Origin: Koleobacter methoxysyntrophicus
GTDB taxonomy: Bacteria; Bacillota; Thermosediminibacteria; Koleobacterales; Koleobacteraceae
Assembly: GCF_017301615.1 (NCBI RefSeq)
Contig: NZ_CP059066.1
Coordinates: 1,533,001-1,597,000 of the forward strand
Direction: 5' to 3'
Length of the DNA stretch: 64,000 bases
The notes beneath the pieces were generated by a model that was not told the DNA's origin, did not search any database, and saw nothing but the letters and a program-made list of their open reading frames with translations. This document shows, one piece after another, positions 8,098-58,073 of the stretch. How positions within the stretch are numbered: the stretch's first letter is position 1; the number at the start of each line of letters is the position of its first letter. The position numbers and the translations under genes were made by a program.

Positions 8098-8124
8098 AAA
8101 CTTGTCAATTGAATATGATTTATA

Positions 8125-8242
8125 ACCTTCAGGGCAGGGTGAAATTCCCGACCGGCGGTAACGTGAAAACGAAGCCCGCGAGCCGTATAGGCTGATCTGG
8201 TGTAATTCCAGAGCCGACAGTAAAGTCTGGATGGGAGAAGGT
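8125..8242 (+). promoter_or_regulatory. FMN riboswitch (RFN element)
   Basis: The conserved RFN core is easily read: ACCTTC closing with GAAGGT (P1), GGGCAGGGTGAAATTCCCGA, CCGGCGGT, GCCCGCGAGCC, CTGGTGTAATTCCAG, CCGACAGT and TCTGGATGGGAGAAGG. FMN binding should favour the terminator at 8287-8320 and shut off ribD-ribE-ribBA-ribH. Confidence 0.97.
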
Positions 8243-8286
8243 GATTGTACCTATGCTGTATAGGAAAATAATTGCAACTGAATTTA

Positions 8287-11908: not shown

Positions 11909-11931
11909 TATAACATAAAGAACTGAATATG

Positions 11932-12020
11932 CAGGCTAGGGGTGCCATTTGGCTGAGAAGGAGCAATCCTAACCCTTTGAACCTGATGTGGTTAGTACCA
12001 CCGTAGGGAAGCTGTGCCTG
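11932..12020 (+). promoter_or_regulatory. TPP riboswitch (THI element)
   Basis: Conserved THI elements are present: GGGGTGCC, GGCTGAGA, ACCCTTTGAACCTGAT, GTTAGTACCACCGTAGGGAAG, with CAGGC/GCCTG closing P1. TPP binding should favour the terminator that follows and repress thiE-thiC. Confidence 0.97.
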
Positions 12021-12038
12021 AAGATGATTGAAACCTGA

Positions 12039-44467: not shown

Positions 44468-45532
44468 ATGGATTTTGTCATAGGAACTGAAGGCAGGGAT
44501 GAATTTTTATTCTTGGAGGTTGCAAAAAGCGCGAAGAAGTTAGTGGAAGATGTTATGCTGGTTAAAACAGATGAGAATGTTGTTATTACTGCCGATACAT
44601 CGACAGATAAAAGGGTAGTTGACGCTACGGCAAGGGCTGTTTATGCAGCAGGTGGGGTGCCGACGGTGATATGGTATGAAACCAGACCTACGGCTGTTGT
44701 GGAACCGCCGGCTCCGGTAGCAGGAGCGGTTAAAAATGCAGATGTTTGGATCGAATACTCTTATGCATATATCCTGCATACCAATGCCTGGAAAGAGGCA
44801 TTAAAATCAGGTACCAGATATATTTGCCTTACGGGCATGGATGCCTTAATGATGGTCAACACTATAGGTAGGGTAGATTACCCGAAAATGCTGGAATTGG
44901 GAGAAAGACTGCGGCAGCTTGTCGAGTCAGCTGATGAGGTTATAATAAAAAGCCCGGCAGGCACAGACCTGACTGCCTACAACAGGGGGCGAAGGGTGAG
45001 ACAATCGGGGAAACTGGCCGATACACCGGGAGAACCCATCATGCTGGGTGGACAGGTTTCATGGTGTCCTGTTGAAGAGACTATAAACGGCAGGCTTGTT
45101 TTTGACGGAGCCCTTTGGCCGCCCGCTGAGATAGGCTTATTACGGTCCCCCGTAGTGCTGACGCTGGAAAAAGGGGTTGTAACCCGTGTAGAAGGAGGGG
45201 CCGAAGCCAAAACCTTTGAAAGGTGGCTGGCGGGATTTAATGACCCTACCATGTACCATTTGGCCCATTATTCGCTGGGGTTTAATCCCGGAGTAACGAG
45301 ATGCACCGGAAGGATTGTGGAAGATGAGAGGGTGTTCGGGTGTATAGAGATGGGGTTGGGGAGCCAGGGGCCCCAGATCGGAGGCAAGACATGGAAGAGC
45401 GCATCCCACACTGATGGTATAGTTTTGAACCCGACGATAATTCTGGATGGGGAAGTAATAGAAGAGGAAGGCAGATACGTTCATCCCGATTTGGTCCGAT
45501 TATGCAGGGACTTAGGGGTTCCGGGATACTGA
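44468..45532 (+). CDS. M29-like aminopeptidase / NicX-type metalloprotein
   Basis: A 354-residue protein of the aminopeptidase T (M29) superfamily, which also includes the ring-opening 2,5-dihydroxypyridine dioxygenase NicX. Visible late-domain blocks are HLAHYSLGFNPGV (~270), FGCIEMGLGSQ (~300) and SASHTDGIVLNPTI (~325), which hold Glu, His and Asp metal-ligand candidates. ATGs also occur at 44450 and 44459, but GGGGAGG nine bases before the ATG at 44468 decides the start. It is followed 45 bases later by an M20 peptidase, so a role in peptide or cyclic amide breakdown is likely. Confidence 0.8.
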   Translation: MDFVIGTEGRDEFLFLEVAKSAKKLVEDVMLVKTDENVVITADTSTDKRVVDATARAVYAAGGVPTVIWYETRPTAVVEPPAPVAGAVKNADVWIEYSYAYILHTNAWKEALKSGTRYICLTGMDALMMVNTIGRVDYPKMLELGERLRQLVESADEVIIKSPAGTDLTAYNRGRRVRQSGKLADTPGEPIMLGGQVSWCPVEETINGRLVFDGALWPPAEIGLLRSPVVLTLEKGVVTRVEGGAEAKTFERWLAGFNDPTMYHLAHYSLGFNPGVTRCTGRIVEDERVFGCIEMGLGSQGPQIGGKTWKSASHTDGIVLNPTIILDGEVIEEEGRYVHPDLVRLCRDLGVPGY

Positions 45533-45577
45533 TAACTAAATTGTAGTTTATCCATTAAGAATTTATGGAGGGGTATT

Positions 45578-46675
45578 ATGGATATGCACGGTATTGTAGA
45601 TTATTTCCTTGAGCTGGTTAAAATAGACAGCCCTTCGAAGAATGAAAGGGCACTGGCTGATAAATTGAAAAGGGATTTAATGGAGTTAGGTTTTCAGGTG
45701 GAAGAAGATGATGCCGGTTCGAAAGTTAACGGGAATGCGGGTAATATCATCGCACGTCTTAGAGGAAACGCCCAAAAGCCGACGATACTTTTCGGCGCGC
45801 ACATGGATACGGTGTCGAAAACCCCTGGAATAAAGCCGGTTATTAATAATGGAAAAATATTCAGTGACGGCACAACGATTCTGTCAGCTGATGATAAAGC
45901 CGGTATATGTGCTGTGATTCAGGGCATAAGATCAGCCCTGAAGGAAGGTGTGGAACACGGTGATATAGAAGTGGTATTTACAATATGTGAAGAAATAGGG
46001 CTGAAGGGTTCGAAGAATCTGGACGTCAAAAAACTGAAGGCAGAAATGGGTTTTATTTTGGACAGCAGCGGAGAAGTAGGGAAAATTATAACGAGTGCCC
46101 CTGCACAGAATAAATTCTATTTCAAGATCAAAGGGAAGCCTGCCCATGCGGGAGTTGAACCCGAAAAGGGCATAAGTGCCGTAAAGGTAGCCGGGGTGGC
46201 ACTTGCTAATATGAATTTTGGGCGCATAGACCAGGAGACTACGGCAAATATCGGAATAATAAAAGGCGGCAGTGCCACAAACATTATAACAGATTTAGTT
46301 GAAATGGAAGGGGAGGCCAGGAGCAGAAATGAAGAAAAGCTAGAGAAGCAGACGGAACATATGATTGAGGCAGTAAAGGATGCCGCAGAAAAGTACGGGG
46401 CTCAGGTAGAATACAGGGTTGATTCCTCATACCCTGCTTTTAAGTTTGATGAAAACAGCCCGATTGTAAGATATGCCGTGAGAGCTGTTGAAAAGATAGG
46501 TTTAAAGCCGCAAGCAGCTCCATCGGGTGGGGGGAGTGACGCGAATATCCTTAATGGAAAGGGTATTCCCTGTATTAATATGGGCTCAGGGTTTTTTAAC
46601 CCGCACTCCCCGGAAGAATGCATAACTATTGAGAATCTGGTCAATCTGAGTAAACTGGTCAAAGCCCTTTTGTGA
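45578..46675 (+). CDS. M20-family metallopeptidase (PepT-like)
   Basis: A 365-residue di-zinc peptidase. Metal-site motifs are present: FGAHMDTV (~72-79), SADDKAGICAVI (~109-120, bridging Asp), ICEEIGLKGS (catalytic Glu pair ~139-148) and a late His in NPHSPEE (~348). The lid domain (~180-290) has GKPAHAGVEPEKG. It most resembles the tripeptidase T-like branch of M20. It follows the M29-like gene and is translationally adjacent to a PucR regulator gene (one base). Confidence 0.9.
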   Translation: MDMHGIVDYFLELVKIDSPSKNERALADKLKRDLMELGFQVEEDDAGSKVNGNAGNIIARLRGNAQKPTILFGAHMDTVSKTPGIKPVINNGKIFSDGTTILSADDKAGICAVIQGIRSALKEGVEHGDIEVVFTICEEIGLKGSKNLDVKKLKAEMGFILDSSGEVGKIITSAPAQNKFYFKIKGKPAHAGVEPEKGISAVKVAGVALANMNFGRIDQETTANIGIIKGGSATNIITDLVEMEGEARSRNEEKLEKQTEHMIEAVKDAAEKYGAQVEYRVDSSYPAFKFDENSPIVRYAVRAVEKIGLKPQAAPSGGGSDANILNGKGIPCINMGSGFFNPHSPEECITIENLVNLSKLVKALL

Positions 46676-46676
46676 G

Positions 46677-48374
46677 GTGATATATGAATATGGGGTAACG
46701 GTAGAAGAAGCCTTGAAACTTCCTGCTTTTAAGGGCGCAAACTTGGTAGCCGGGGAAAAAGGGAGATTCAAAGTTATAAAATACGTGGATGTAATGGAGG
46801 TCCCCGATGCAGTAAACTGGGTAAGGGAACAGGAAATGCTCTTAACTACTGCTTACGCAATAAAAAATGATGCAAAAGCCCAGGAGGATTTGATTATAAA
46901 GCTGGCGGAAGTAAAAGCTTCCGCCCTGTGCATAAAACCGGGAAGGTTTATTGACAGGATTCCGCAAAAAATAATTAATCTTGCGGAAAAACTGGACTTT
47001 CCAGTTATCGAGCTTCCTCCGGAAGTTCCGTATATAGATATAATTAACCAGGTGTTGAGCCGGATTTTAAGCAAGAAAACATCCTTTCTTGAAACCATAA
47101 ATAAAATCCACAACACTTTGACTGATGCCGTACTTGAGGGCGGGGGTTTACAGGCTATATGCAGTAAATTGGCTGAACTAACGGGAAACCCTATAGCGAT
47201 ATTCAGCAGCAGCAGCAGGATAATTGCTTTTTCGGGTAAACAGGGAGAAATATGCCAGCTAACAGACCAGCTGCAGTTAATAAAAGAATACGGTAGATAT
47301 GATAAATGTGATAAACATAATGAGACCAATTCACCGTCAACAAGGATTCTGGAAAGCGAGAGAGGTAAGTTTATAATTACTCCTATTGTTATAGAAAGAA
47401 GGCTTTACGGCTTTTTGGTGATGTTCGGCTACAGCCACCAGGATAGCGAATTAAATATTAAAGCCCTGGAACAGGGTGCGGTTGTGGCTGCCCTGGAGTT
47501 TTTGAAGGACAAAAACGTCCAGGAGACGAAGAAGCGTATAATGAAGGATCTTATCAACGACCTGCTGGAAGGAAATATTTCAAATCCGGATGTACTGCAG
47601 GAGAGGGGGCGCTATTTAGGCTGGGATTTAAAAAAGGGTATGCAGGTAATGGTAGCGGATATAGAAGAACGGCACACCAGATATAACGGGAAAGAAGAAG
47701 GAAACATAGGAAACGTACAGGAGTTTAAAAACCCTCTTCTGGATATAGTTAAGGTTACTGTGAAAAAAATAGATCCCGGGTCAATAATTACAGATAAAAG
47801 CGAAAGGGTTGTTATACTTATAAACATACCTGATGATTACAGGAGATCCCCCAACAACCTGTACTCATATACAAAAGGAATAGCAGTGAATATTCAGAGG
47901 GAAGTTACTGCAAATTTAAATGAAGTTAACATAAATCTGGGCATAGGAAGGTATTATGGGGATATACAGAATATTTCAAAGGGCTATAAAGAAGCTTTGG
48001 AAGCCCTGAATCTGGGCAAGGGAATCCTCGGACCGGGTAAAGTCGTTCACTTCGATGACTTAGGTGTATATAAAGTAATGTTGGATGTATCCGATAAAAG
48101 AATCTTAAAAAACTTTGCTTTAAAATATCTGCAGCCCCTTATCGATTACGATGAACAGTACGGGTCTGATTTAATAACCACCCTTGAAGCCTATCTGAAA
48201 AATGACAAAAAGATTTCGCGAACGGCTGATGAGTTATTTATCCATAGAAACACAGTAAGATACAGGATAGACAGGATTAATGATATTCTGGGTGTGGATT
48301 TAGAAGACGGAGAAATGCTGTTTAATATATACTTCAGCCTTAAAGCCTTAAAGGTAATTGATTCAACATATTGA
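46677..48374 (+). CDS. PucR-family transcriptional regulator (first)
   Basis: A 565-residue activator. The N-terminal PucR domain is at ~5-125 (TVEEALKLPAFKGANLVAG, EMLLTTAYAI, LCIKPGRFIDRIP), a GAF/GGDEF-like middle follows, and the C-terminal HTH_30 is at ~515-555 (ISRTADELFIHRNTVRYRID). The start is GTG at 46677, one base after the peptidase stop, with no good separate ribosome site, so translation is probably coupled. PucR proteins respond to small nitrogen compounds. It lies between the peptidases and the OPT operon, and probably controls both or one of them. Confidence 0.9.
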   Translation: MIYEYGVTVEEALKLPAFKGANLVAGEKGRFKVIKYVDVMEVPDAVNWVREQEMLLTTAYAIKNDAKAQEDLIIKLAEVKASALCIKPGRFIDRIPQKIINLAEKLDFPVIELPPEVPYIDIINQVLSRILSKKTSFLETINKIHNTLTDAVLEGGGLQAICSKLAELTGNPIAIFSSSSRIIAFSGKQGEICQLTDQLQLIKEYGRYDKCDKHNETNSPSTRILESERGKFIITPIVIERRLYGFLVMFGYSHQDSELNIKALEQGAVVAALEFLKDKNVQETKKRIMKDLINDLLEGNISNPDVLQERGRYLGWDLKKGMQVMVADIEERHTRYNGKEEGNIGNVQEFKNPLLDIVKVTVKKIDPGSIITDKSERVVILINIPDDYRRSPNNLYSYTKGIAVNIQREVTANLNEVNINLGIGRYYGDIQNISKGYKEALEALNLGKGILGPGKVVHFDDLGVYKVMLDVSDKRILKNFALKYLQPLIDYDEQYGSDLITTLEAYLKNDKKISRTADELFIHRNTVRYRIDRINDILGVDLEDGEMLFNIYFSLKALKVIDSTY

Positions 48375-48629
48375 TAAAACCTATGCTTTGTTTTAATTGT
48401 GCATCAAATATAAATATTTCTCCGCAATTTTGTAATTGTATACTATACTGAACTTTATTAAATTTGATATAATTACAAAAACCACAGCTTTATCTTGTAA
48501 AATTAATGCTTTGATAAAGTGATGTGGCATTAGTATTGAATTCACTGGTAGGTAGGGTATTAAAGAAAGGAGGGATATATTTAAACTAAAAAGCTAAAAA
48601 CTCGATATTTCTAAAAAGGAGGAGTTAAA
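48375..48629 (+). promoter_or_regulatory. Leader region of the OPT-AroM operon
   Basis: 255 bases, AT-rich. It should contain the operon promoter. A TGGCAT-N5-TTGAA at 48525-48539 resembles a sigma-54 site but lacks the invariant GC of the -12 box, and TATAAT at about 48468 has no good -35. AAGGAGG precedes the ATG at 48630. Confidence 0.4.
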
Positions 48630-50276
48630 ATGTCGCAAAACGGTAGTAACGGTAATTTCGGCGATGCTTTATCAGGCGGCATGGGGCCTCAGATTTCCCG
48701 GGAGAAACTACCCGAAAAACATCCATCGGCCCTGAATCCTGCAATTTTAGTCCTTAACATCATAGTAGCGGTATTAGGTGCGATAATAGGGTTAGAGCTC
48801 ATAACTAGGCTGGGGATCAGTACTAATACATCAATTATAGGAGCCCTTATAGCGATCCTTATAGCCAGATTACCATTTGCATTTTTCAAACAGTTCAGAC
48901 AGGTAAACAGCCAGAACCTCATACAAACGGCCATTTCAGGGGCTACCTTTTCGGCGGCAAATGCCCTGCTTCTACCTATAGGTGTACCGTACCTGTTGGG
49001 TAAGCCGGAGCTTGTTATGCCAATGTTAATCGGAGCGTCTATCGCATTGTTAACCGACGCCACAATTATATACTGGATTTTCGATACTAAGATTTTTCCC
49101 GCTGAAGGCACATGGCCTCCAGGGATAGCAACGGCTGAAGCTATTCTGGCAGCGGCAAAAGGCGGTAAAAAAGCTCTGATGCTGGTTTACGGAACTATTG
49201 GAGGCATAATCGGCAAACATCTGGGTATCCCTACCGATGTCTTCGGTGTATCCTGGATCGGTAATGTTTGGGCTTTAACGATGTTCGGCGTAGGGTTAAT
49301 TATGAGGGGGTATTCACCCAGGTTTTTCGGGATAGATATTAACAAGTATTATGTTCCCCATGGTATCATGATAGGAGCCGGATTGGTAGCCCTCGTTCAA
49401 ATAATCATGATAATTACCAGGAAGGAAGAGAAAGGAAAGGAAGAGGTTAAATTTACTAGAACAAATACAGACCTGGGTAATGGTTTAGGAAAAGGCCTTG
49501 TAATATATTTAGCTGCAGCTCTTATCCTTGCAGTAGTGGGTGGCCTGATATCCCAAATGTCAACAGGTCAGTTCATATTCTGGATAATCTTTGCTGCCTT
49601 TGCTGCCATAGTATCCGAACTTATAGTAGGCCTTTCGGCAATGCATGCCGGCTGGTTTCCTGCCTTTGCTACAGCCCTGATTTTCCTGGTACTCGGGATG
49701 CTGTTCGGGTTCCCGCCCGTTGCCCTGGCATTGCTGGTTGGGTATACAGCAGCTACCGGCCCGGCGTTTGCCGATATGGCTTACGACCTGAAAGCCGGCT
49801 GGATACTAAGAGGCTCAGGGGAAGACCCTGAATTCGAACTAGAAGGACGGAAGCAGCAGTATATTGCAGAAGTAATTTCCTTCCTGGTTGCTATAGTGAT
49901 TGTAGGTCTTGTTTACAAGGTGTATTTCGCTCAGGACCTTTTTCCTCCAGTAGATAGGGTATATGTGGCAACCATAAAAGCAGGGACCGATATGCAGGTG
50001 GCCAGATACCTGCTAATGTGGGCCATACCCGGAGCCATAATCCAGTTTTTGGGCGGCCCGGCAAGACAGCTGGGTATTCTGTTTGCTACAGGGTTACTTA
50101 TTAACTATCCCATTGCAGGTATAACGGTGTTGGTGGGTATAGCAATACGGCTCATTACCGTTAAGAGATTCGGTGAAGAAGGCCAAAGACAGCTCTATGT
50201 TCTGGGGGCCGGATTTATTGCAGGTGCCAGCCTATACAGCTTCTTTATGTCAACCCTTAAACTGGGCAAAAAATAG
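48630..50276 (+). CDS. OPT-family oligopeptide transporter
   Basis: A 548-residue polytopic protein with about fourteen hydrophobic segments of the OPT (OPT/YSL) family: HPSALNPAILVLNIIVAVLG at the start (seen ~20-40), SGATFSAANALLLPIGVPYLLG (blocks ~100-120), FPAEGTWPPGIATAEAI (~150-165) and YDLKAGWILRGSG (~385-397). The family takes up peptides or metal-chelate complexes by proton symport. It begins a run of five further genes on the same strand (DUF917, DUF1177, AroM and others), so it is the likely entry point for their substrate. Confidence 0.9.
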   Translation: MSQNGSNGNFGDALSGGMGPQISREKLPEKHPSALNPAILVLNIIVAVLGAIIGLELITRLGISTNTSIIGALIAILIARLPFAFFKQFRQVNSQNLIQTAISGATFSAANALLLPIGVPYLLGKPELVMPMLIGASIALLTDATIIYWIFDTKIFPAEGTWPPGIATAEAILAAAKGGKKALMLVYGTIGGIIGKHLGIPTDVFGVSWIGNVWALTMFGVGLIMRGYSPRFFGIDINKYYVPHGIMIGAGLVALVQIIMIITRKEEKGKEEVKFTRTNTDLGNGLGKGLVIYLAAALILAVVGGLISQMSTGQFIFWIIFAAFAAIVSELIVGLSAMHAGWFPAFATALIFLVLGMLFGFPPVALALLVGYTAATGPAFADMAYDLKAGWILRGSGEDPEFELEGRKQQYIAEVISFLVAIVIVGLVYKVYFAQDLFPPVDRVYVATIKAGTDMQVARYLLMWAIPGAIIQFLGGPARQLGILFATGLLINYPIAGITVLVGIAIRLITVKRFGEEGQRQLYVLGAGFIAGASLYSFFMSTLKLGKK

Positions 50277-50363
50277 TTTGATTACAATTTAATAAACGGA
50301 TATACTACTTACACCGCAACCTTCTTTAGAGAATAGTATTGAAATCCGGGAGCCGGGGACAAA

Positions 50364-50400
50364 AGACTAAAACCTGCCCTTAACAGGCAGGTTTTAGTCT
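50364..50400. other. Perfect 15-bp hairpin between OPT and racemase genes
   Basis: AGACTAAAACCTGCC and its exact reverse complement around the loop CTTAACA. On the plus strand no T tract follows (GGAAG); on the minus strand TTTTG follows. It may stabilise or attenuate the operon mRNA. Confidence 0.7.
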
Positions 50401-50456
50401 GGAAGAAAAGATTAACGAAGGGAAATTTATAATCTAAAAGAGGGGAGAGACCGAAA

Positions 50457-51104
50457 GTGAAAACCTTTAAAATAGGATTGATTAGAGTCCTTACTACCGA
50501 TGACAGAGAGCTCTTAAACCGCCACGGCAAGATCCTTCAGGAAAATTTCCCTTTTTTTGAGGTCGAAAGCCGGTGTATTCCTGAACAATATACCGGGGTT
50601 CATTCGGAAGAAACCCACCTCAAAGCCGTTCCTAAAGTTGTAGACCTGGCTGTTGAAATGGAGAAGGAAGGCAAGGACGGGATAATCATAAGCTGTGCCG
50701 GTGATCCCGGGCTGGAGGAAGCAAGGCAGAAACTGAGGATACCCGTGGTGGGAGCCGGGGCTTCCACTGCATCAATAGCCCTTGGCTGCAGCAGAAGGGT
50801 TGGGGTGCTGAATTTAACGGAGCCAACACCTGAAGGGATGAAGCAGATACTCGGTAAACACCTTGTGGCAGAAGAAACTGTAGATGCTAGAAATACCCTT
50901 GAGCTGATGACCCTAGAGGGGATGGAAAGCGCAGTTCGATCTTCATTTAAGCTTAAGAGTTCTGGGGCAGAGGTTATAGCCCTGGCATGTACCGGTATGT
51001 CAACCATAGGTGCCGCAGCCAGGATAAAGGAAAGAATTGGTATACATGTAATAGACCCGGTACTAGCAGAAGGGATGGTTATGTGGAGTTTACTTAGATT
51101 TTGA
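50457..51104 (+). CDS. Asp/Glu/hydantoin racemase-superfamily protein
   Basis: A 215-residue protein with the two cysteines of cofactor-independent racemases, in IIISCAGDPGLEEAR (~75-89) and IALACTGMSTIG (~178-189), placed in the two half-domains. The nearest known functions are hydantoin and aspartate/glutamate racemases. The start is GTG at 50457 with a GAGGGGAG site. It is followed six to fifteen bases later by the DUF917 gene, a pairing reported in hydantoin-type catabolism, so racemisation of an amino acid derivative is a fair guess. Confidence 0.82.
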   Translation: MKTFKIGLIRVLTTDDRELLNRHGKILQENFPFFEVESRCIPEQYTGVHSEETHLKAVPKVVDLAVEMEKEGKDGIIISCAGDPGLEEARQKLRIPVVGAGASTASIALGCSRRVGVLNLTEPTPEGMKQILGKHLVAEETVDARNTLELMTLEGMESAVRSSFKLKSSGAEVIALACTGMSTIGAAARIKERIGIHVIDPVLAEGMVMWSLLRF

Positions 51105-51119
51105 CTGGAGGTGGTGAGG

Positions 51120-52193
51120 ATGGAGTTAACCAGAGAGATGGTGGAAGCGGCAGTATACGGAGGTGCCGTCCTTGGAGGAGGAGGCGGCGGCTGGATAGAC
51201 AGCGGCCTGGAACTGGGAAATCTGGCCTTGGACTACGGCCATCCGAAGCTTATTACAATTGATGACATACCGCCTGATGCGGTTGTTGTTACCGCTGCTG
51301 CAGTGGGGGCACCGGCTGCCAGGGAAAGATATGTGAAGCCCTATGATTATGTTAGAGCGGTGGAGATGCTCGCAGAATTGCTGGAGGGGTGTATAGACGG
51401 AATTATTACAAATGAAAACGGGGCATCCACAACAGTTAACGGATGGCTTCAGTCGGCGGTTCTGGGTATCCCTGTTATCGATGCCCCGTGCAATGGAAGG
51501 GCTCATCCTATAAGCACCATGGGGGCTATGGGCCTTACCCGGGTTGAGGATTATGTATCTGTCCAGGCAGCTTCGGGAGGCAACCCGAAAACGGGCAGAA
51601 GATTAGAGCTTACCGTAAAAGGGAATATCCATTACTGCAGCAATATTATAAGGAATATGGCGGTAGAAGCCGGGGGAATCGTGGCCGTGGCAAGAAACCC
51701 GGTAAAAGCCGAATATATTGCAAAAAATGGCGCTCCAGGAGCCATAACCCAGGCCGTACATGTGGGGCAGGAAATGATAAAGGCCAGACCTAAAGGCCCC
51801 AAAAGGGTTATTGAAGCTGCAGCCCGTGCTGTAGAGGGCGAAGTAGTTACTTGGGGTAAAGTCACAAAGGTTATTCTGGAAACAAAAGGCGGATTTGATG
51901 TTGGTGAGGTAGCAGTAAGAGATGGCAATATAGTCTACACCATGACCTTCTGGAATGAATACATGACCCTGGAAAAGGGAGAAGAGCGGATTGCTACCTT
52001 CCCCGACCTCATTATGACCCTTTCCATGGAAGATGCTACTCCCTTAACTACGGCAAAAATCAAAGAAGGTCAGGAAGTTGCCGTAATCAAGACCCACAGG
52101 AACAACTTGAAACTGGGGGCGGGGATGTTCGAAATGGAACTCTACAAAAGGGTGGAAGATACTATCAATAAACCTATATTGAAATATCTGTAA
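51120..52193 (+). CDS. DUF917 family protein (S-methyl thiohydantoin desulfurase-like)
   Basis: A 357-residue protein starting MELTREMVEAAVYGGAVLGG and a Gly-rich loop (GGGGGGWIDSG, ~17-28), the hallmark of DUF917. Other family blocks are DDIPPDAVVVTAAAVGAP and NENGASTTVNGWLQSAVLGIP. Members are found next to hydantoinases and some are annotated as thiohydantoin desulfurases; the reaction here is unknown. GTGs upstream extend the frame to 51111, but GGAGG eight bases before the ATG at 51120 decides the start. Confidence 0.88.
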   Translation: MELTREMVEAAVYGGAVLGGGGGGWIDSGLELGNLALDYGHPKLITIDDIPPDAVVVTAAAVGAPAARERYVKPYDYVRAVEMLAELLEGCIDGIITNENGASTTVNGWLQSAVLGIPVIDAPCNGRAHPISTMGAMGLTRVEDYVSVQAASGGNPKTGRRLELTVKGNIHYCSNIIRNMAVEAGGIVAVARNPVKAEYIAKNGAPGAITQAVHVGQEMIKARPKGPKRVIEAAARAVEGEVVTWGKVTKVILETKGGFDVGEVAVRDGNIVYTMTFWNEYMTLEKGEERIATFPDLIMTLSMEDATPLTTAKIKEGQEVAVIKTHRNNLKLGAGMFEMELYKRVEDTINKPILKYL

Positions 52194-52261
52194 AAAGTAA
52201 TTGTCTTACAAGTGCGGTTAAGGCCAAGAAAAGATGATATCTTTTAGAAAGGGTGTTTTGA

Positions 52262-53200
52262 ATGCTGAAACAGGTAATAGAGCTCTTTGATCTTTTAGAT
52301 AGCAGCAAGGCAAATGGCGAGGTTATTAAGGAACTCCTGCTTGAAAAAAATCAGAAAAACGTTATAGTTGAAAGCGTTCAGGGGGACAAGGGGAAAACGG
52401 ATTTCATTAAGATAAAGATCTCCGGCATAAAGGGCAAGGACAAAGGGGGAGATGCCCCTACCCTTGGAATAATCGGGCGTTTGGGCGGATTGGGAGCACG
52501 CCCGGAGCGGATTGGGTTTGTATCCGATGGAGATGGTGCCCTTACGGTACTAAGTGTTGCCCTGAAGCTTTCTGAAATGGCAACTCAGGGGGATCATCTT
52601 GACGGAGACGTAATAGTAACCACCCATATCTGCCCTGATGCACCTACGAGACCCCATGACCCCGTTCCCTTTATGGATTCCCCCGTTGATATATATACTA
52701 TGAACAAGCATGAAATAGATGCAGAAATGGATGCAATCCTTTCCGTTGATACCACTAAAGGGAACAGGATAATAAACCACAAGGGTTTTGCTGTATCCCC
52801 TACTGTAAAAGAAGGGTATATATTAAGGGTAAGCGAGGACCTGCTCGATATAATGCAGAACGTTACCGGTAAACTGCCCGTTACCTTTCCTATAACGACC
52901 CAGGATATAACCCCTTATGGAAACGGTATTTATCACTTGAACAGTATCCTCCAGCCTTCGGTGGCAACCAAGGCCCCTGTTGTAGGTATCGCCATCACCG
53001 CGGAGACCCCCGTTCCCGGCTGTGCTACAGGGGCAACCCACCTGACGGATATAGAGATGGCTTCCAGGTTCTGCCTTGAAGTCGCAAAAGCCTTCGGGAG
53101 AAAACAGTGCAGGTTTTTCGATGAACAGGAATTTTCAAGGTTAAAGAAGCTGTACGGTGATTTATCCCACCTTCAGACCTTCGGGAATATGGAGGAATAA
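52262..53200 (+). CDS. DUF1177 family protein
   Basis: A 312-residue protein that I recognise as DUF1177: GDAPTLGIIGRLGGLGARPERIGFVSDGDGA in blocks near residues 63-93, then TTHICPDAPTRPHDPVPFMDSP (~118-138) with several His and Asp that could bind metal, and VGIAITAETPVPGCATGATH late. No reaction is known. It typically travels with AroM and OPT transporters, as it does here. GAAAGGGTG precedes the ATG. Confidence 0.85.
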   Translation: MLKQVIELFDLLDSSKANGEVIKELLLEKNQKNVIVESVQGDKGKTDFIKIKISGIKGKDKGGDAPTLGIIGRLGGLGARPERIGFVSDGDGALTVLSVALKLSEMATQGDHLDGDVIVTTHICPDAPTRPHDPVPFMDSPVDIYTMNKHEIDAEMDAILSVDTTKGNRIINHKGFAVSPTVKEGYILRVSEDLLDIMQNVTGKLPVTFPITTQDITPYGNGIYHLNSILQPSVATKAPVVGIAITAETPVPGCATGATHLTDIEMASRFCLEVAKAFGRKQCRFFDEQEFSRLKKLYGDLSHLQTFGNMEE

Positions 53201-53203
53201 ATA

Positions 53204-54028
53204 ATGAACATCCAGTTCACCCTTACGGTTCCCGAAGGCAAAAGGCTTATAGCGGAAGGTATTGTAAGCCTGCCCGAAATCAAAAGGGTTTTGGAATCGG
53301 GTAAGATTCTGTTAAAAGGGGGTACCACAGTATCGGCCATTTCCGAAAGGCTGATCGGGAGAAAGCTGAGGATAAGCGGCAGGATATCTCCTTTAGGTAC
53401 AAAGGGGAGCAGGAAAAATGTAAGTCTACCCCACAGCATTTTAATTATGGGGCATAATATATATGAAGTAGATGACAAACTGGAGGAAACAGTAAATTCC
53501 ATGGGGCCTGAGGATATATGCCTTATATCTGCCAATGCTATCGATTCAGAAGGGAATGCGGCTATGATGGCAGGGGCTCCGCTAGGAGGAAACCCCGGAA
53601 GGATAATATCGGGTCTTATGGCAGAAGGTGTAAACATTATTATTCCTGTAGGGCTCGAAAAGCTCATTCCCGGGAAAATTCAACAGGCGGTTGCAGCTTC
53701 TGGCCGGAAAAAACCGGATACTGCCATGGGGATGGCAGTAGGGCTTATCCCCTTAACAGGCCGTGTTTTTACCGAAATAGATGCGATAAAAGCCATATCA
53801 GGCCTGGATGCTGTAGTAATCGGGAGAGGCGGCATCTGCGGTGCCGAAGGGGCGTCCGTATTCGCCGTTGAAGGCCCTGAAAAACAGTGCAAAAATCTGA
53901 TGGATATTATAAGGGATATTAAGGGGAAAGGAATTTCAGGGGATGAAATGACCCTTGAAGAATGCAGACCCGGCAGCCCGGGATGCAAATACCATCTAGC
54001 CTGCATGTACAGGGAGGGTTTCAAATGA
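53204..54028 (+). CDS. Unknown protein with CoA-transferase/LUD-like features
   Basis: A 274-residue protein that I do not place in a named family. Several blocks resemble the NagB/RpiA/CoA-transferase (LUD) fold: ILLKGGTTVSAISERLIG (~37-54), EDICLISANAIDSEGNAA (~102-119) and GVNIIIPVGLEKLIPGKI (~142-159). A Gly-rich VVIGRGGICGAEGASVF (~205-221) follows, and the tail has three cysteines (ECRPGSPGCKYHLAC, ~254-268) that could bind a metal. It begins three bases after the DUF1177 gene and overlaps the AroM start, so it belongs to the same pathway. Confidence 0.65.
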   Translation: MNIQFTLTVPEGKRLIAEGIVSLPEIKRVLESGKILLKGGTTVSAISERLIGRKLRISGRISPLGTKGSRKNVSLPHSILIMGHNIYEVDDKLEETVNSMGPEDICLISANAIDSEGNAAMMAGAPLGGNPGRIISGLMAEGVNIIIPVGLEKLIPGKIQQAVAASGRKKPDTAMGMAVGLIPLTGRVFTEIDAIKAISGLDAVVIGRGGICGAEGASVFAVEGPEKQCKNLMDIIRDIKGKGISGDEMTLEECRPGSPGCKYHLACMYREGFK

Positions 54029-54696
54029 AGGCAAAAATAGGTATGATAACAATAGGCCAGAGCCCCAGAACCGATGTAACCCCTGACCTGGTGGAGGTCT
54101 GGAGAGATCGGGTGGATATAATTCAAAAAGGGGCCCTGGACGGCCTCACCTTAGAAGAGATACAGAAAATGGGGCCGGAAGATGGGGATTATACCCTTGT
54201 AACGAGACTAAATGACGGTACCCAGGTAATAATAGGAAAAAAGCACATCTTACCTAAAGTTCGGGAAAAGGTCAGAGAACTAAATGAGGAAAAAGTAGAT
54301 GTAATTCTTCTATTGTGTACCGGTGAGTTTCCTGAAATGGAATCAAAAATACTGATAATAAAACCTCAAGAGGTGCTGCATAAAACCGTAGCAGCTATTG
54401 CAGGAAAAAATAAAATAGGAGTACTTACACCATTACCGGAACAGGCTGAACAGGCCAGAGAAAAATGGCTGTCTTCGGGGGTGAACGCAGAAATAGCCTG
54501 GGGGTCACCCTATGGAGAAGAAGAGATAATCTTAAGGGGAATCCGGGAACTTTCAGGGAAAAATATATCCCTGATTGTAATGGACTGTATGGGCTATACA
54601 TGGGATATGAAGCAGAAGGCCAAAAAGCTAACCGATAAACCGGTAATCCTGCCCAGAACTCTTATTGCCAGGGTTATAGATGAAATGATAAGCTGA
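54025..54696 (+). CDS. AroM family protein
   Basis: A 223-residue AroM-type protein (MKAKIGMITIGQSPRTDVTP). It looks like a distant Asp/Glu racemase relative: cysteines occur in ILLLCTGEFPEM and VMDCMGYTWDMK, one per half. The enteric AroM sits by aroL but its role is unknown. The frame opens at 53962, but the ATG at 54025 overlaps the previous stop (ATGA) and has GGGAGGG before it. It is the last gene of the OPT operon and converges with the second PucR gene. Confidence 0.88.
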   Translation: MKAKIGMITIGQSPRTDVTPDLVEVWRDRVDIIQKGALDGLTLEEIQKMGPEDGDYTLVTRLNDGTQVIIGKKHILPKVREKVRELNEEKVDVILLLCTGEFPEMESKILIIKPQEVLHKTVAAIAGKNKIGVLTPLPEQAEQAREKWLSSGVNAEIAWGSPYGEEEIILRGIRELSGKNISLIVMDCMGYTWDMKQKAKKLTDKPVILPRTLIARVIDEMIS

Positions 54697-54704
54697 GATT
54701 TATG

Positions 54705-56345
54705 TTAAAACCCATTCAGATTATAGATTTCCTTTAGTTTAAGTGCCAGCTGGAATAACAGCTGGCCTTCTGATGTACCGATATTTATACCGGTAATTTC
54801 TGAAGCCCTTTCCAGACGGTTGTACAACGTATTCCTGTGAATATATAATTTCCTGGAAGTTTGATTGATGTTGCAGTTATTTTCGAAAAAGGCCGTAAGG
54901 GTTTTTACAAGGTTAGTGCTGTTTTTGCTATCATAATCGACAAGCTTACCTACAGTATCCCGGTAAAGATCTAACATTACAGGGTGATTCCTGAACAAAA
55001 ACAGTATATGGTACAGCTTCAGGTCATTATAGAAAAAAACAGGTGCTGAGTTAAAGATTTTAGGCCCCAGCTTCAAACTCAGGGAAGCCTCCTGATAGCT
55101 TTTATGAAGCTCTCCAAGGCTTCTGTAAATATTTCCTACACCCATATGAACGGATAATTTAGGGTGCTTATACACAAAGACTTTAGAAAAATATTCAAAC
55201 CAGCCCGTAAGCTCCTTTTTTAAAGAGGAAAAATCGTTTTCTTTTTTTACCTTATAGAGGATTATTATTCTATCTCCTTTCTTAATTATTTCCTTCTGGT
55301 GTTTCAGTTCAGGCAGTGACCGCAGTTCATATAAAACATCATCCGGTAATTCATTATCTGCAGAATTATCCTTTGAACCTGAATGGCTTATAATTACCAC
55401 TGCCCTGCTGGTATTAGTTTCAAGGTTAAAGAACTCAGCACCCTTTTCAATTGCCGACTCTGATAGATAATTCCCCAAAAGCAATCCCTCAAAAAAGTCT
55501 TCCCTTAATTTCAAGGACGATTCCTGCTGCTTTTGATGGGCAAGAATGGCAATAATTAGGAATGGTATACATTGAGCTGCCAGTATTTTTTCCAGTTCGT
55601 ATATTTCGGAACGTGAAGCAATACAGAGGTAACCCAGGATTTCATCCGGTGTTTTGAGTACAAATATAAGATAATTGTAACCTTCTATCTTAAAAGATAC
55701 AGGTGAAGGCGGTATATTATTCGTTATGAGATTATCTTCTAAATATTCAATAATATCCTCTACCGGGACCAGATCCTCCTGATTACTGCTTTTACCCTTA
55801 TATATCCTGACATCCAGGCGGTTATCCAGCAATATAACCGTTTTATTTATGTATGACAGCATTAAATTTAGTATATCATCCAAACTGTATTTCTCATTAT
55901 GGGTCTGCCATAAGGCTTTCCTGAGCTGTTCGGATATCTTCAGATTATAATTTTCTTCATTGATGATTCTCCCTATGATGGGCCATGTAAGGTCACGGTA
56001 ACTCATTTCAAAAGGGAGTTCCAGCAGCGGCAGGTTCAATTCATCTGCCAGTTTAACAGCCGAGCCGGGTATATCTTTTATAAATCTCCCTTTTTTGATA
56101 GCCAGTCCGGCAGCCCTTTTTTCACTAAGGACTTTTATGATTTCATCTAATTGTTCGATGTTATCTTTAAATCCAAAACCGGCGGAAACAAGAAAGTCCC
56201 CTTCCTTAACCCAGTAAGCCCCATCAGGGGCCTCCATAACCAGGACATCTTTGATCTTCCTGTGTATTCCCTTTTCTCCGGCAATTATCTTAATGTCCCT
56301 GAATTTTTCATTGAGGGTAAACAAGTCCCGTACGGTTAAGTTCAT
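54705..56345 (-). CDS. PucR-family transcriptional regulator (second)
   Basis: A 546-residue protein with the same layout as the one at 46677: PucR domain (~1-125: MNLTVRDLFTLNEKFRDIKI, WVKEGDFLVSAGFGF, LAIKKGRFIKDIPGSA), middle domain, and HTH_30 (~495-535, NINQTSRKLYIHRNTLYNRLERA). AAGGAG nine bases before the ATG at 56345 overrides a longer frame to 56378. It converges with the OPT-AroM operon, so two PucR paralogues bracket that operon. Confidence 0.9.
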   Translation of the reverse strand: MNLTVRDLFTLNEKFRDIKIIAGEKGIHRKIKDVLVMEAPDGAYWVKEGDFLVSAGFGFKDNIEQLDEIIKVLSEKRAAGLAIKKGRFIKDIPGSAVKLADELNLPLLELPFEMSYRDLTWPIIGRIINEENYNLKISEQLRKALWQTHNEKYSLDDILNLMLSYINKTVILLDNRLDVRIYKGKSSNQEDLVPVEDIIEYLEDNLITNNIPPSPVSFKIEGYNYLIFVLKTPDEILGYLCIASRSEIYELEKILAAQCIPFLIIAILAHQKQQESSLKLREDFFEGLLLGNYLSESAIEKGAEFFNLETNTSRAVVIISHSGSKDNSADNELPDDVLYELRSLPELKHQKEIIKKGDRIIILYKVKKENDFSSLKKELTGWFEYFSKVFVYKHPKLSVHMGVGNIYRSLGELHKSYQEASLSLKLGPKIFNSAPVFFYNDLKLYHILFLFRNHPVMLDLYRDTVGKLVDYDSKNSTNLVKTLTAFFENNCNINQTSRKLYIHRNTLYNRLERASEITGINIGTSEGQLLFQLALKLKEIYNLNGF

Positions 56346-56589
56346 AAGCCGTATCTCCTTAATCTCTAATCCGTCCATCTAGTGTCAACCGTTATATATA
56401 TTATGCTATTACAGGGGGTATATGTAAATATAAGTTTAAAAAAATTTTTTTATTTTTTGCAGGAATTTTATCATAAATTAATGCAAGAAGACCCCTATAC
56501 CTCTACAGGTGGGAGATGAACTGCATATACCATTTTGTAAAAAAATAGCATATAATATAAGCATAGCCCAAACGGAAGGAGGTGTGAAA

Positions 56590-56979
56590 ATGGAAGTAAC
56601 CAGGGTAATAGCAATACAACTAAATCCCACAAAAGAACAACAGATAATAATAGGGCACCTAACCTATTCTGCCTCCAAGCTTTGGAATGTCGCAAACTAC
56701 AATATAAAGCAAGGGAATATCAAACTAAAGAAATTAAAATCTATGCTTAAGAAAGACTTCTGGTATAAAAATCTACACTCTCAATCTGCACAAGCAGTAC
56801 TTGAGAAACTAAAAATCGCATGGGAAAACTGCTACAAAAAGTATACAAAAGAACCGCGATTTCAACCAAAAAGGAATAACAGGGTCCAAATCCATAAACC
56901 AAACCTTAGTCAAAGATGTGGAGAAAGACATAAGCCTTTGTTTCTCCACATCATACAGCAAAGGTATCTGCTGCCGTAA
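56590..56979 (+). pseudogene. Truncated TnpB (IS200/IS605 OrfB) gene, 5' fragment
   Basis: From an ATG at 56590 (GGAGGTG site) the frame reads MEVTRVIAIQLNPTKEQQII and LTYSASKLWNVANYNIK, closely resembling the start of the intact TnpB at 61153-59789. Homology fades after PRFQPKRN at about 56875, where a minus-strand transposase fragment seems to be joined; the RuvC core is absent. The segment before it (56480-56520) has short palindromes as at an IS200/IS605 left end. Confidence 0.75.
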
Positions 56980-57290: not shown

Positions 57291-58073
57291 ATGAAAATAT
57301 CACTTCTTCAAATGGATGTTATTCTTGGTCATCCTTCGGAGAACAGACAAAAGGTAGAAAAAATGTTTCGACAGACAATTGAAGATGCTCCTGATGTGAT
57401 AGTCCTGCCCGAAACATGGAACACCGGGTTTTTCCCCGAAAATGTGAAGGAACTAGCAGATCTACAGGGAGAACCCTCCTGCAGCTTGCTTTCAGAACTG
57501 GCCGGGGAGTATAAGGTTAATATCATAGGTGGGTCCATAGCTGATAATGAAAAGGGGAAGGTATATAACACCAATTACGTGTTTGACAGGAATGGTAGGA
57601 TGATATCCAAGTATAGAAAAATCCATCTGTTTTCACCTTCTGGAGAACATAATTTCTTTGAACATGGGGACGAAATAAGCGTATATGAAATCGACGGTGT
57701 TAAAGCGGCTACAATAATCTGCTACGACCTTAGATTTGTTGAACTGGTAAGGACACTGGCTCTGGAAGGAATACAAATATTATTTGTCCCTGCCGAGTGG
57801 TCCCATCACCGGTTAGAACATTGGAAGACATTGTTGAAGGCGAGGGCTGTTGAAAATCAGATGTTTGTAGTAGCAGTAAACGGTGTGGGAAAAGCAAAAG
57901 AATTGAAGTTCTGCGGAAATTCTATGATAATAGATCCCTGGGGTGAGGTAGTTGCTTGTGCTGGGGAAGAAGAAGGGGTTATCACAGGGGAAATAGACCT
58001 TTCGATTATTCACGACATCAGGGAGAGGATAAACGTTTTCAGGGATAGGCGACCTGGTATATACAAGATTTAG
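57291..58073 (+). CDS. Carbon-nitrogen hydrolase (omega-amidase/nitrilase superfamily)
   Basis: A 260-residue cytoplasmic amidase with the complete Glu-Lys-Cys triad: Glu in VLPETWNTGF (~42), Lys in YRKIHLF (~110) and Cys in IICYDLRF (~144). The overall pattern is that of omega-amidases such as MtnU, which hydrolyse alpha-ketoglutaramate or ketosuccinamate. The class II aldolase stub that follows hints at a former salvage or deamidation locus, which is only inference. AAGGAGGG precedes the ATG. Confidence 0.9.
   Translation: MKISLLQMDVILGHPSENRQKVEKMFRQTIEDAPDVIVLPETWNTGFFPENVKELADLQGEPSCSLLSELAGEYKVNIIGGSIADNEKGKVYNTNYVFDRNGRMISKYRKIHLFSPSGEHNFFEHGDEISVYEIDGVKAATIICYDLRFVELVRTLALEGIQILFVPAEWSHHRLEHWKTLLKARAVENQMFVVAVNGVGKAKELKFCGNSMIIDPWGEVVACAGEEEGVITGEIDLSIIHDIRERINVFRDRRPGIYKI

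Follow-up and report, generated by a model that had tools for sequence, protein, structure and literature searches.

A conserved gene module of Koleobacter methoxysyntrophicus points to a possible route for uptake and degradation of unusual small peptides

Introduction

What would a bacterium do with an OPT-family transporter encoded beside a hydantoin-type racemase and the poorly understood proteins DUF917, DUF1177, and AroM? This question is raised by a locus at positions 44468 to 56345 of a 64,000-nucleotide stretch of the Koleobacter methoxysyntrophicus genome (contig NZ_CP059066.1, positions 1,533,001 to 1,597,000; the whole stretch is called the window here). A sequence-only reading had described the locus as an uncharacterised uptake-and-degradation system, perhaps for a cyclic amide, hydantoin, thiohydantoin, or D-amino acid peptide. 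That description was partly supported, and "uncharacterised" was right, although related gene clusters had already been reported in 2024 (PMC11055893). In that work, cyclodipeptide oxidase (CDO) clusters of the kind without a cyclodipeptide synthase (non-CDPS) were enriched in hydantoin racemase (PF01177), DUF917, AroM, OPT or ABC peptide transporters, and peptidases. They included fused CDOs, carried by Blautia members, and the authors left the substrate open. Here we established by computation what the Koleobacter locus and its relatives contain, how far genes and cysteines are conserved, how transporters are exchanged, and which folds are predicted. Judged by the families involved, the gene set points to a widespread putative route, in bacteria and archaea and on plasmids, for the uptake and degradation of small peptides of unusual kinds, probably cyclic or racemised.

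Results

The gene set is a conserved module

Contigs were searched with DUF1177 only, which gave 80 named loci with a bias to close relatives. As an offset for this bias, we used 300 Bacillota genomes that were sampled evenly. DUF1177 was present in 32 of them, and the surroundings of 29 were examined. As a control, 20 windows of 20 kb were drawn at random from Bacillota genomes. The named loci span Bacillota, Synergistota, Pseudomonadota, Actinomycetota, Chloroflexota, Bathyarchaeota, Thermoplasmata, and others. Within 10 kb of DUF1177, AroM was found at 61 of the 80, OPT at 38, and DUF917 at 29, which supports the link between OPT, AroM, and DUF1177 in other bacteria that the sequence-only reading had pointed to. 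In the even sample, DUF1177 was accompanied by AroM (17/29), racemase (15/29), DUF917 (13/29), PucR (16/29), and a peptide transporter (17/29), whereas the random windows had no AroM, racemase, or DUF917 and a single instance each of PucR and a peptide transporter. Therefore, the gene set is a conserved module, beyond chance grouping, and the lack of co-occurrence that would have counted against an uptake-and-degradation system was not seen.

The module comes in several versions. The enterobacterial one is IclR-OPT-DUF1177-AroM-PepE-racemase, without DUF917 (PepE is a peptidase of family S51). It also occurs on a Klebsiella pneumoniae conjugative plasmid, pRHB26-C08_2 (NZ_CP057460.1), flanked by insertion sequences and transposase genes. 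A haloarchaeal plasmid carries ABC transporter-DUF917-DUF1177-AroM-aminopeptidase-racemase. Because of its position between insertion elements on the conjugative plasmid and its presence on the haloarchaeal one, the module seems to be spreading as a catabolic unit. Further versions carry M20, M24, and S9 peptidases and hydantoinase A/B, and IclR takes the place of PucR at many loci. Blautia versions have a nitroreductase fused to, or adjoining, DUF6092. Paenibacillus has a minimal IclR-OPT-DUF917 locus (L258:9681-13167), a few genes away from xanthine-dehydrogenase-like subunits.

Two kinds of peptide importer serve the same enzymes

Associations were scored over 109 loci, which lack phylogenetic independence, and p-values are a guide only: the importer was OPT at some loci and an Opp/Dpp ABC system at others, with both in 5/109 (odds ratio, 0.15), DUF917 was associated with OPT (odds ratio, 9), and M20 was associated with Opp (odds ratio, 41). 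At one locus (L006), an OPT version and an Opp version adjoin, each with its own DUF1177. Because two unrelated kinds of peptide importer serve the same enzymes, the substrate would be peptide-like, and this swap is the best evidence for it.

The Koleobacter genome, a single contig of 3.10 Mb, has DUF1177 and AroM in one copy each. It also contains a second cassette at 983333 to 996431, without DUF1177 and AroM, in the order OppABCDF, two M29/NicX genes, PucR, racemase, DUF917, and a paralogue of the gene between DUF1177 and AroM, which we call gene 8. One of its M29/NicX proteins is of the canonical M29 type and the other is of the NicX type. By eye, this cassette adjoins an apparent type III CRISPR operon with a Cas10-like GGDD protein (L143:6574-9114).

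We give an even chance to the reading that the genes form a regulated module by which small peptides, or cyclic amides derived from peptides, are taken up and catabolised. These compounds would have unusual stereocentres, and the amides would be like diketopiperazines, hydantoins, or imides. Another reading, possible but rather unlikely, is that linear peptides containing D-, beta-, or isoaspartyl residues are scavenged: peptidases would cut them, racemases would convert the released D-amino acids, and DUF917 would be an add-on. This would suit the enterobacterial gene order with PepE in it and DUF917 missing, and also the Opp-type versions, which have M20 and often no DUF917. However, the strong tie of DUF917 to OPT, the existence of the minimal IclR-OPT-DUF917 locus, and a racemase closest to a hydantoin-racemase-like structure all speak against it.

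The racemase and AroM share two cysteines

The racemase-family protein (50457 to 51104, plus strand) scored 79 bits with PF01177, against a cut-off of 31, and matched 2eq5, which is named a hypothetical hydantoin racemase (E = 1.5e-65). C80 (with one exception) and C178 are conserved. By its PF01177 score and these two catalytic-type cysteines, it is a member of the Asp/Glu/hydantoin racemase superfamily.

AroM was named in Escherichia coli decades ago. The Koleobacter protein (54025 to 54696, plus strand) scored 268.9 bits with PF07302 (cut-off, 23.8) and 231.8 bits with NF007788 (cut-off, 198). C100 and C190 are invariant in 17/17 sequences, and the AroM and racemase profiles align with both cysteines matched (hhalign E = 6e-9), as expected if, as had been proposed, two proteins of the locus belong to the racemase superfamily. 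Because both cysteines are conserved and matched to the racemase, AroM is probably a two-cysteine epimerase or racemase. An AroM gene (L256:13909-14568) is also present in a Paenibacillus ergothioneine-degradation locus, with thiourocanate hydratase and thiohydantoin desulfurase above their cut-offs, which fits a role as a hydantoin-type racemase. In the literature, "AroM family protein" was found only in PMC11055893, which proposed from predicted structures that AroM is such a two-cysteine epimerase or racemase.

An allantoin racemase is among the PDB matches of the racemase. Together with the PucR regulators and the OPT-DUF917 locus near xanthine-dehydrogenase-like genes, it would be in line with a PucR-controlled catabolism of hydantoins related to purines or allantoin. 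We consider this improbable: peptide transporters and peptidases dominate, IclR often substitutes for PucR, and allantoinase or purine genes are absent from the recurrent neighbours.

The DUF917 enzyme is distinct from true thiohydantoin desulfurases

The sequence-only reading had placed one protein in a hydantoin-associated family, and the DUF917 match agrees with this. DUF917 is now called S-Me-THD, and the gene (51111 to 52193, plus strand) matches PF06032 and PF20906, with 2o3i as a structural match. However, its product reached only 345.7 bits against NF058529, the model for thiohydantoin desulfurase (cut-off, 440), and 307 bits against NF058532, the model for S-methyl thiohydantoin desulfurase (cut-off, 450). 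Scores were bimodal among the 300 Bacillota genomes: 17 genomes were at about 250 to 345 bits, mostly with the gene adjoining DUF1177, the rest were at about 105 or below, and none passed 440. Two genomes do have desulfurases that pass the cut-off (about 600 bits), and these genes are beside thiourocanate hydratase at separate loci. One such Paenibacillus carries two lower-scoring DUF917 proteins as well. The cluster protein and the true desulfurases share an RAHP motif, but the preceding residues in this active-site-like loop differ (APCNGRAHP versus ATGDIRAHP). Because the scores are bimodal and the true desulfurases are at other loci, we assign the cluster DUF917 to a branch that is related to the true thiohydantoin desulfurases but distinct from them.

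The thiohydantoin substrate that the sequence-only reading had listed is therefore disfavoured, both by the curated models and by the separate true loci. The score of 345.7 bits is the point in favour of ergothioneine or thiohydantoin degradation, which we regard as very improbable here.

DUF1177 has a predicted aminopeptidase-like fold

An AlphaFold model of DUF1177 (52262 to 53200, plus strand; PF06675, 471.7 bits) had a pLDDT of 87 and a predicted template-modelling (pTM) score of 0.90. Among solved structures, those of the M28, M17, and M20 zinc aminopeptidases come nearest to it (Foldseek E of about 1e-7 to 3e-8, TM score of about 0.5), so the model has the predicted fold of the clan MH zinc aminopeptidases. 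D89, D91, H122, C124, D163, and H225 are invariant in the alignment and could form a metal site. On this modelling, DUF1177 is likely a metallohydrolase. In the open literature, it turned up in a single paper, on an unrelated subject.

The metalloenzyme, the M20 peptidase, and gene 8

Two metallopeptidases, of families M29 and M20, had been proposed upstream, and the second assignment holds. The PepT-like M20 peptidase (45578 to 46675, plus strand) scored 407.7 bits with TIGR01883 (cut-off, 274.25), and its ligand-type residues H75, D105, E138, E139, and H343 are conserved. The first gene (44468 to 45532, plus strand) matched no Pfam or NCBIfam family, and its best PDB match is 7cn3, the 2,5-dihydroxypyridine dioxygenase NicX (E = 8e-13). 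The NicX residues that we take to be its iron ligands, His265, His318, and Asp320, align with H267, H314, and D316. In the canonical M29 relatives that were aligned with it, the positions of H267 and E294 are occupied by Glu and His, respectively. We rejected a canonical M29 aminopeptidase, because the ligand pattern E..E..H..HxD is absent from this protein, though it is seen in a neighbouring subfamily. The alignment argues for a NicX-type metal site in a NicX/M29-superfamily metalloenzyme.

Gene 8 (53204 to 54028, plus strand) had been called CoA-transferase-like. An assignment as a CoA-transferase was not supported, as no Pfam or NCBIfam family matched it and the fold similarity is weak. 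Its predicted model (pTM, 0.90) had a best Foldseek E of 3.7e-3 and TM scores of 0.3 to 0.37, a weak likeness to the NagB/RpiA/CoA-transferase group. DUF917 accompanies gene 8 in 12 of 13 cases. The family, part of which is a distant stand-alone clade, is present in 84/300 Bacillota genomes, and its members bear a C-terminal cysteine cluster, seen as a Cys/His motif in the Koleobacter protein. The stand-alone clade likewise ends in a Cys-rich tail, and a distant relative (L095; L146:7253-8065) has genes for a glycyl radical enzyme and a radical SAM protein as neighbours.

Organization of the locus

Families were assigned with Pfam and NCBIfam models at their cut-offs, and these matched the M20 peptidase, both PucR regulators, OPT, the racemase (Asp_Glu_race), DUF917, DUF1177, and AroM. 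All ten open reading frames (ORFs) previously listed are present, most with a plausible ribosome-binding site. As had been proposed, two PucR-family regulators bracket the set, each with PF07905, PF17853, and PF13556. The first is at 46677 to 48374 on the plus strand, and the second is convergent, at 54705 to 56345 on the minus strand, where the longest ORF begins at 56378. OPT (48630 to 50276, plus strand) scored 88.7 bits with PF03169 (cut-off, 25.8).

Six genes had been described as tightly spaced. This is true of five, racemase-DUF917-DUF1177-gene 8-AroM, with successive gaps of 6, 68, 3, and -4 bp, the AroM start codon (ATG at 54025) overlapping the gene 8 stop. However, a 180-bp gap separates OPT from the racemase gene. 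It contains a hairpin on the plus strand at 50364 to 50400, with a perfect 15-bp stem, a 7-nucleotide loop, and a U-rich 3' arm, which a terminator scan listed on the minus strand too. The entire gap has a folding z of -3.7. The hairpin is terminator- or attenuator-like and may indicate termination or attenuation after OPT. A promoter and terminator scan was uninformative, with promoters somewhat above shuffled sequences and terminators near them. Rfam found no riboswitch within the cluster; the only ones in the window are far upstream, for flavin mononucleotide (8121 to 8246) and thiamine pyrophosphate (11928 to 12026), both above gathering scores.

A recent foreign origin of the Koleobacter cluster was rejected, as its G+C content at third codon positions (0.41 to 0.50) lies near the mean of the surrounding background (0.43). 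Beyond the cluster, an ORF at window positions 56509 to 56979 resembles by eye the N-terminal part of an IS200/IS605-type OrfB (TnpB), with no Pfam match. A carbon-nitrogen hydrolase gene (PF00795) is at 57291 to 58073, immediately past the cluster.

Discussion

We infer the steps of the module, their order, and the substrate from family membership and context. PucR regulators would sense the compound and OPT would import it. The DUF917 enzyme would then hydrolyse a hydantoin-like or cyclic-amide carbon. The racemase and AroM, as two-cysteine enzymes, would epimerise the alpha-carbon, allowing L-specific enzymes to act. DUF1177, the PepT-like M20 peptidase, and the NicX/M29-like metalloenzyme would hydrolyse the product to amino acids, and gene 8 would be an accessory of the DUF917 branch.

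Several observations count in favour of this peptide and cyclic-amide module. They are the co-occurrence relative to random windows, the replacement of OPT by Opp/Dpp, and the DUF917-OPT and M20-Opp ties. They also include the second cassette, the minimal IclR-OPT-DUF917 locus, and the PepE, other peptidases, and hydantoinase A/B of the relatives. Finally, there are the conserved cysteine pair, the peptidase-like fold of DUF1177, and AroM beside thiourocanate hydratase and thiohydantoin desulfurase in Paenibacillus.

Other observations weigh against it. The enterobacterial versions have no DUF917, which means that ring opening is not a universal step. Characterised DUF917 enzymes are, by their family names, desulfurases and not ring-openers. 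DUF1177 may not be a peptidase: hhalign against M20 and hmmsearch against the PDB gave no sequence link to peptidases, the typical metal ligands are not readily recognised, H122-x-C124 stands in place of the usual Glu-Glu pair, and a His near the last helix is variable. Also, the OPT family transports metal chelates and includes YSL-type transporters.

Uptake of metal-peptide chelates rather than peptide catabolism is nonetheless hardly credible, even with one relative named "OPT/YSL family transporter" by RefSeq, since Opp/Dpp peptide ABC systems replace OPT alongside the same enzymes and a metal regulator is absent from the recurrent neighbours. We give just as little weight to a cluster for the biosynthesis or tailoring of cyclic dipeptides; the nitroreductase-DUF6092 of Blautia matches the fused oxidases and gene content of PMC11055893, but DUF6092 is unmatched in the Koleobacter genome (a weak negative), no cyclodipeptide synthase was seen, and importers and peptidases suggest catabolism.

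The peptide and cyclic-amide module resembles three kinds of locus. It has the racemase, DUF917, AroM, OPT, and peptidases in common with the non-CDPS CDO clusters (PMC11055893), and the two sets overlap because Blautia members here carry nitroreductase/DUF6092. However, the Koleobacter locus has no CDO gene between its PucR genes, and DUF1177, gene 8, the NicX-type enzyme, and the transporter-swap logic are not mentioned in that paper. Ergothioneine catabolic loci (NF058530 thiourocanate hydratase plus NF058529) have a related DUF917 enzyme, with AroM nearby in Paenibacillus, but they use a polar amino-acid ABC transporter instead of OPT, and the Koleobacter cluster has no adjoining thiourocanate hydratase and a DUF917 below the cut-off. 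The Opp/Dpp-M20-DUF1177-IclR/PucR loci of Bacilli and Clostridia, which emerged from the present analysis, share DUF1177, a peptidase, a peptide importer, and a regulator but differ in having an ABC importer and usually neither DUF917 nor gene 8. New here are the aminopeptidase-like fold predicted for DUF1177, the retention of two cysteines in the racemase and AroM, the separation of this DUF917 from true desulfurases, and the NicX-type ligands of the supposed M29 protein.

More speculatively, and with considerable doubt, DUF1177 might be a new metallohydrolase family with a non-standard metal site. It would work with DUF917, AroM, and the racemase in a dedicated, horizontally mobile pathway of bacteria and archaea that opens and degrades cyclic dipeptides or related cyclic amides.

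If the peptide and cyclic-amide reading is true, it would provide functions at once for DUF1177, AroM, a branch of DUF917, and the unnamed gene 8 family. The transporter swap yields a testable prediction of the substrate class. The module would then define a widespread uptake route for peptides that are racemised or cyclic, an aspect of peptide turnover that is poorly understood.

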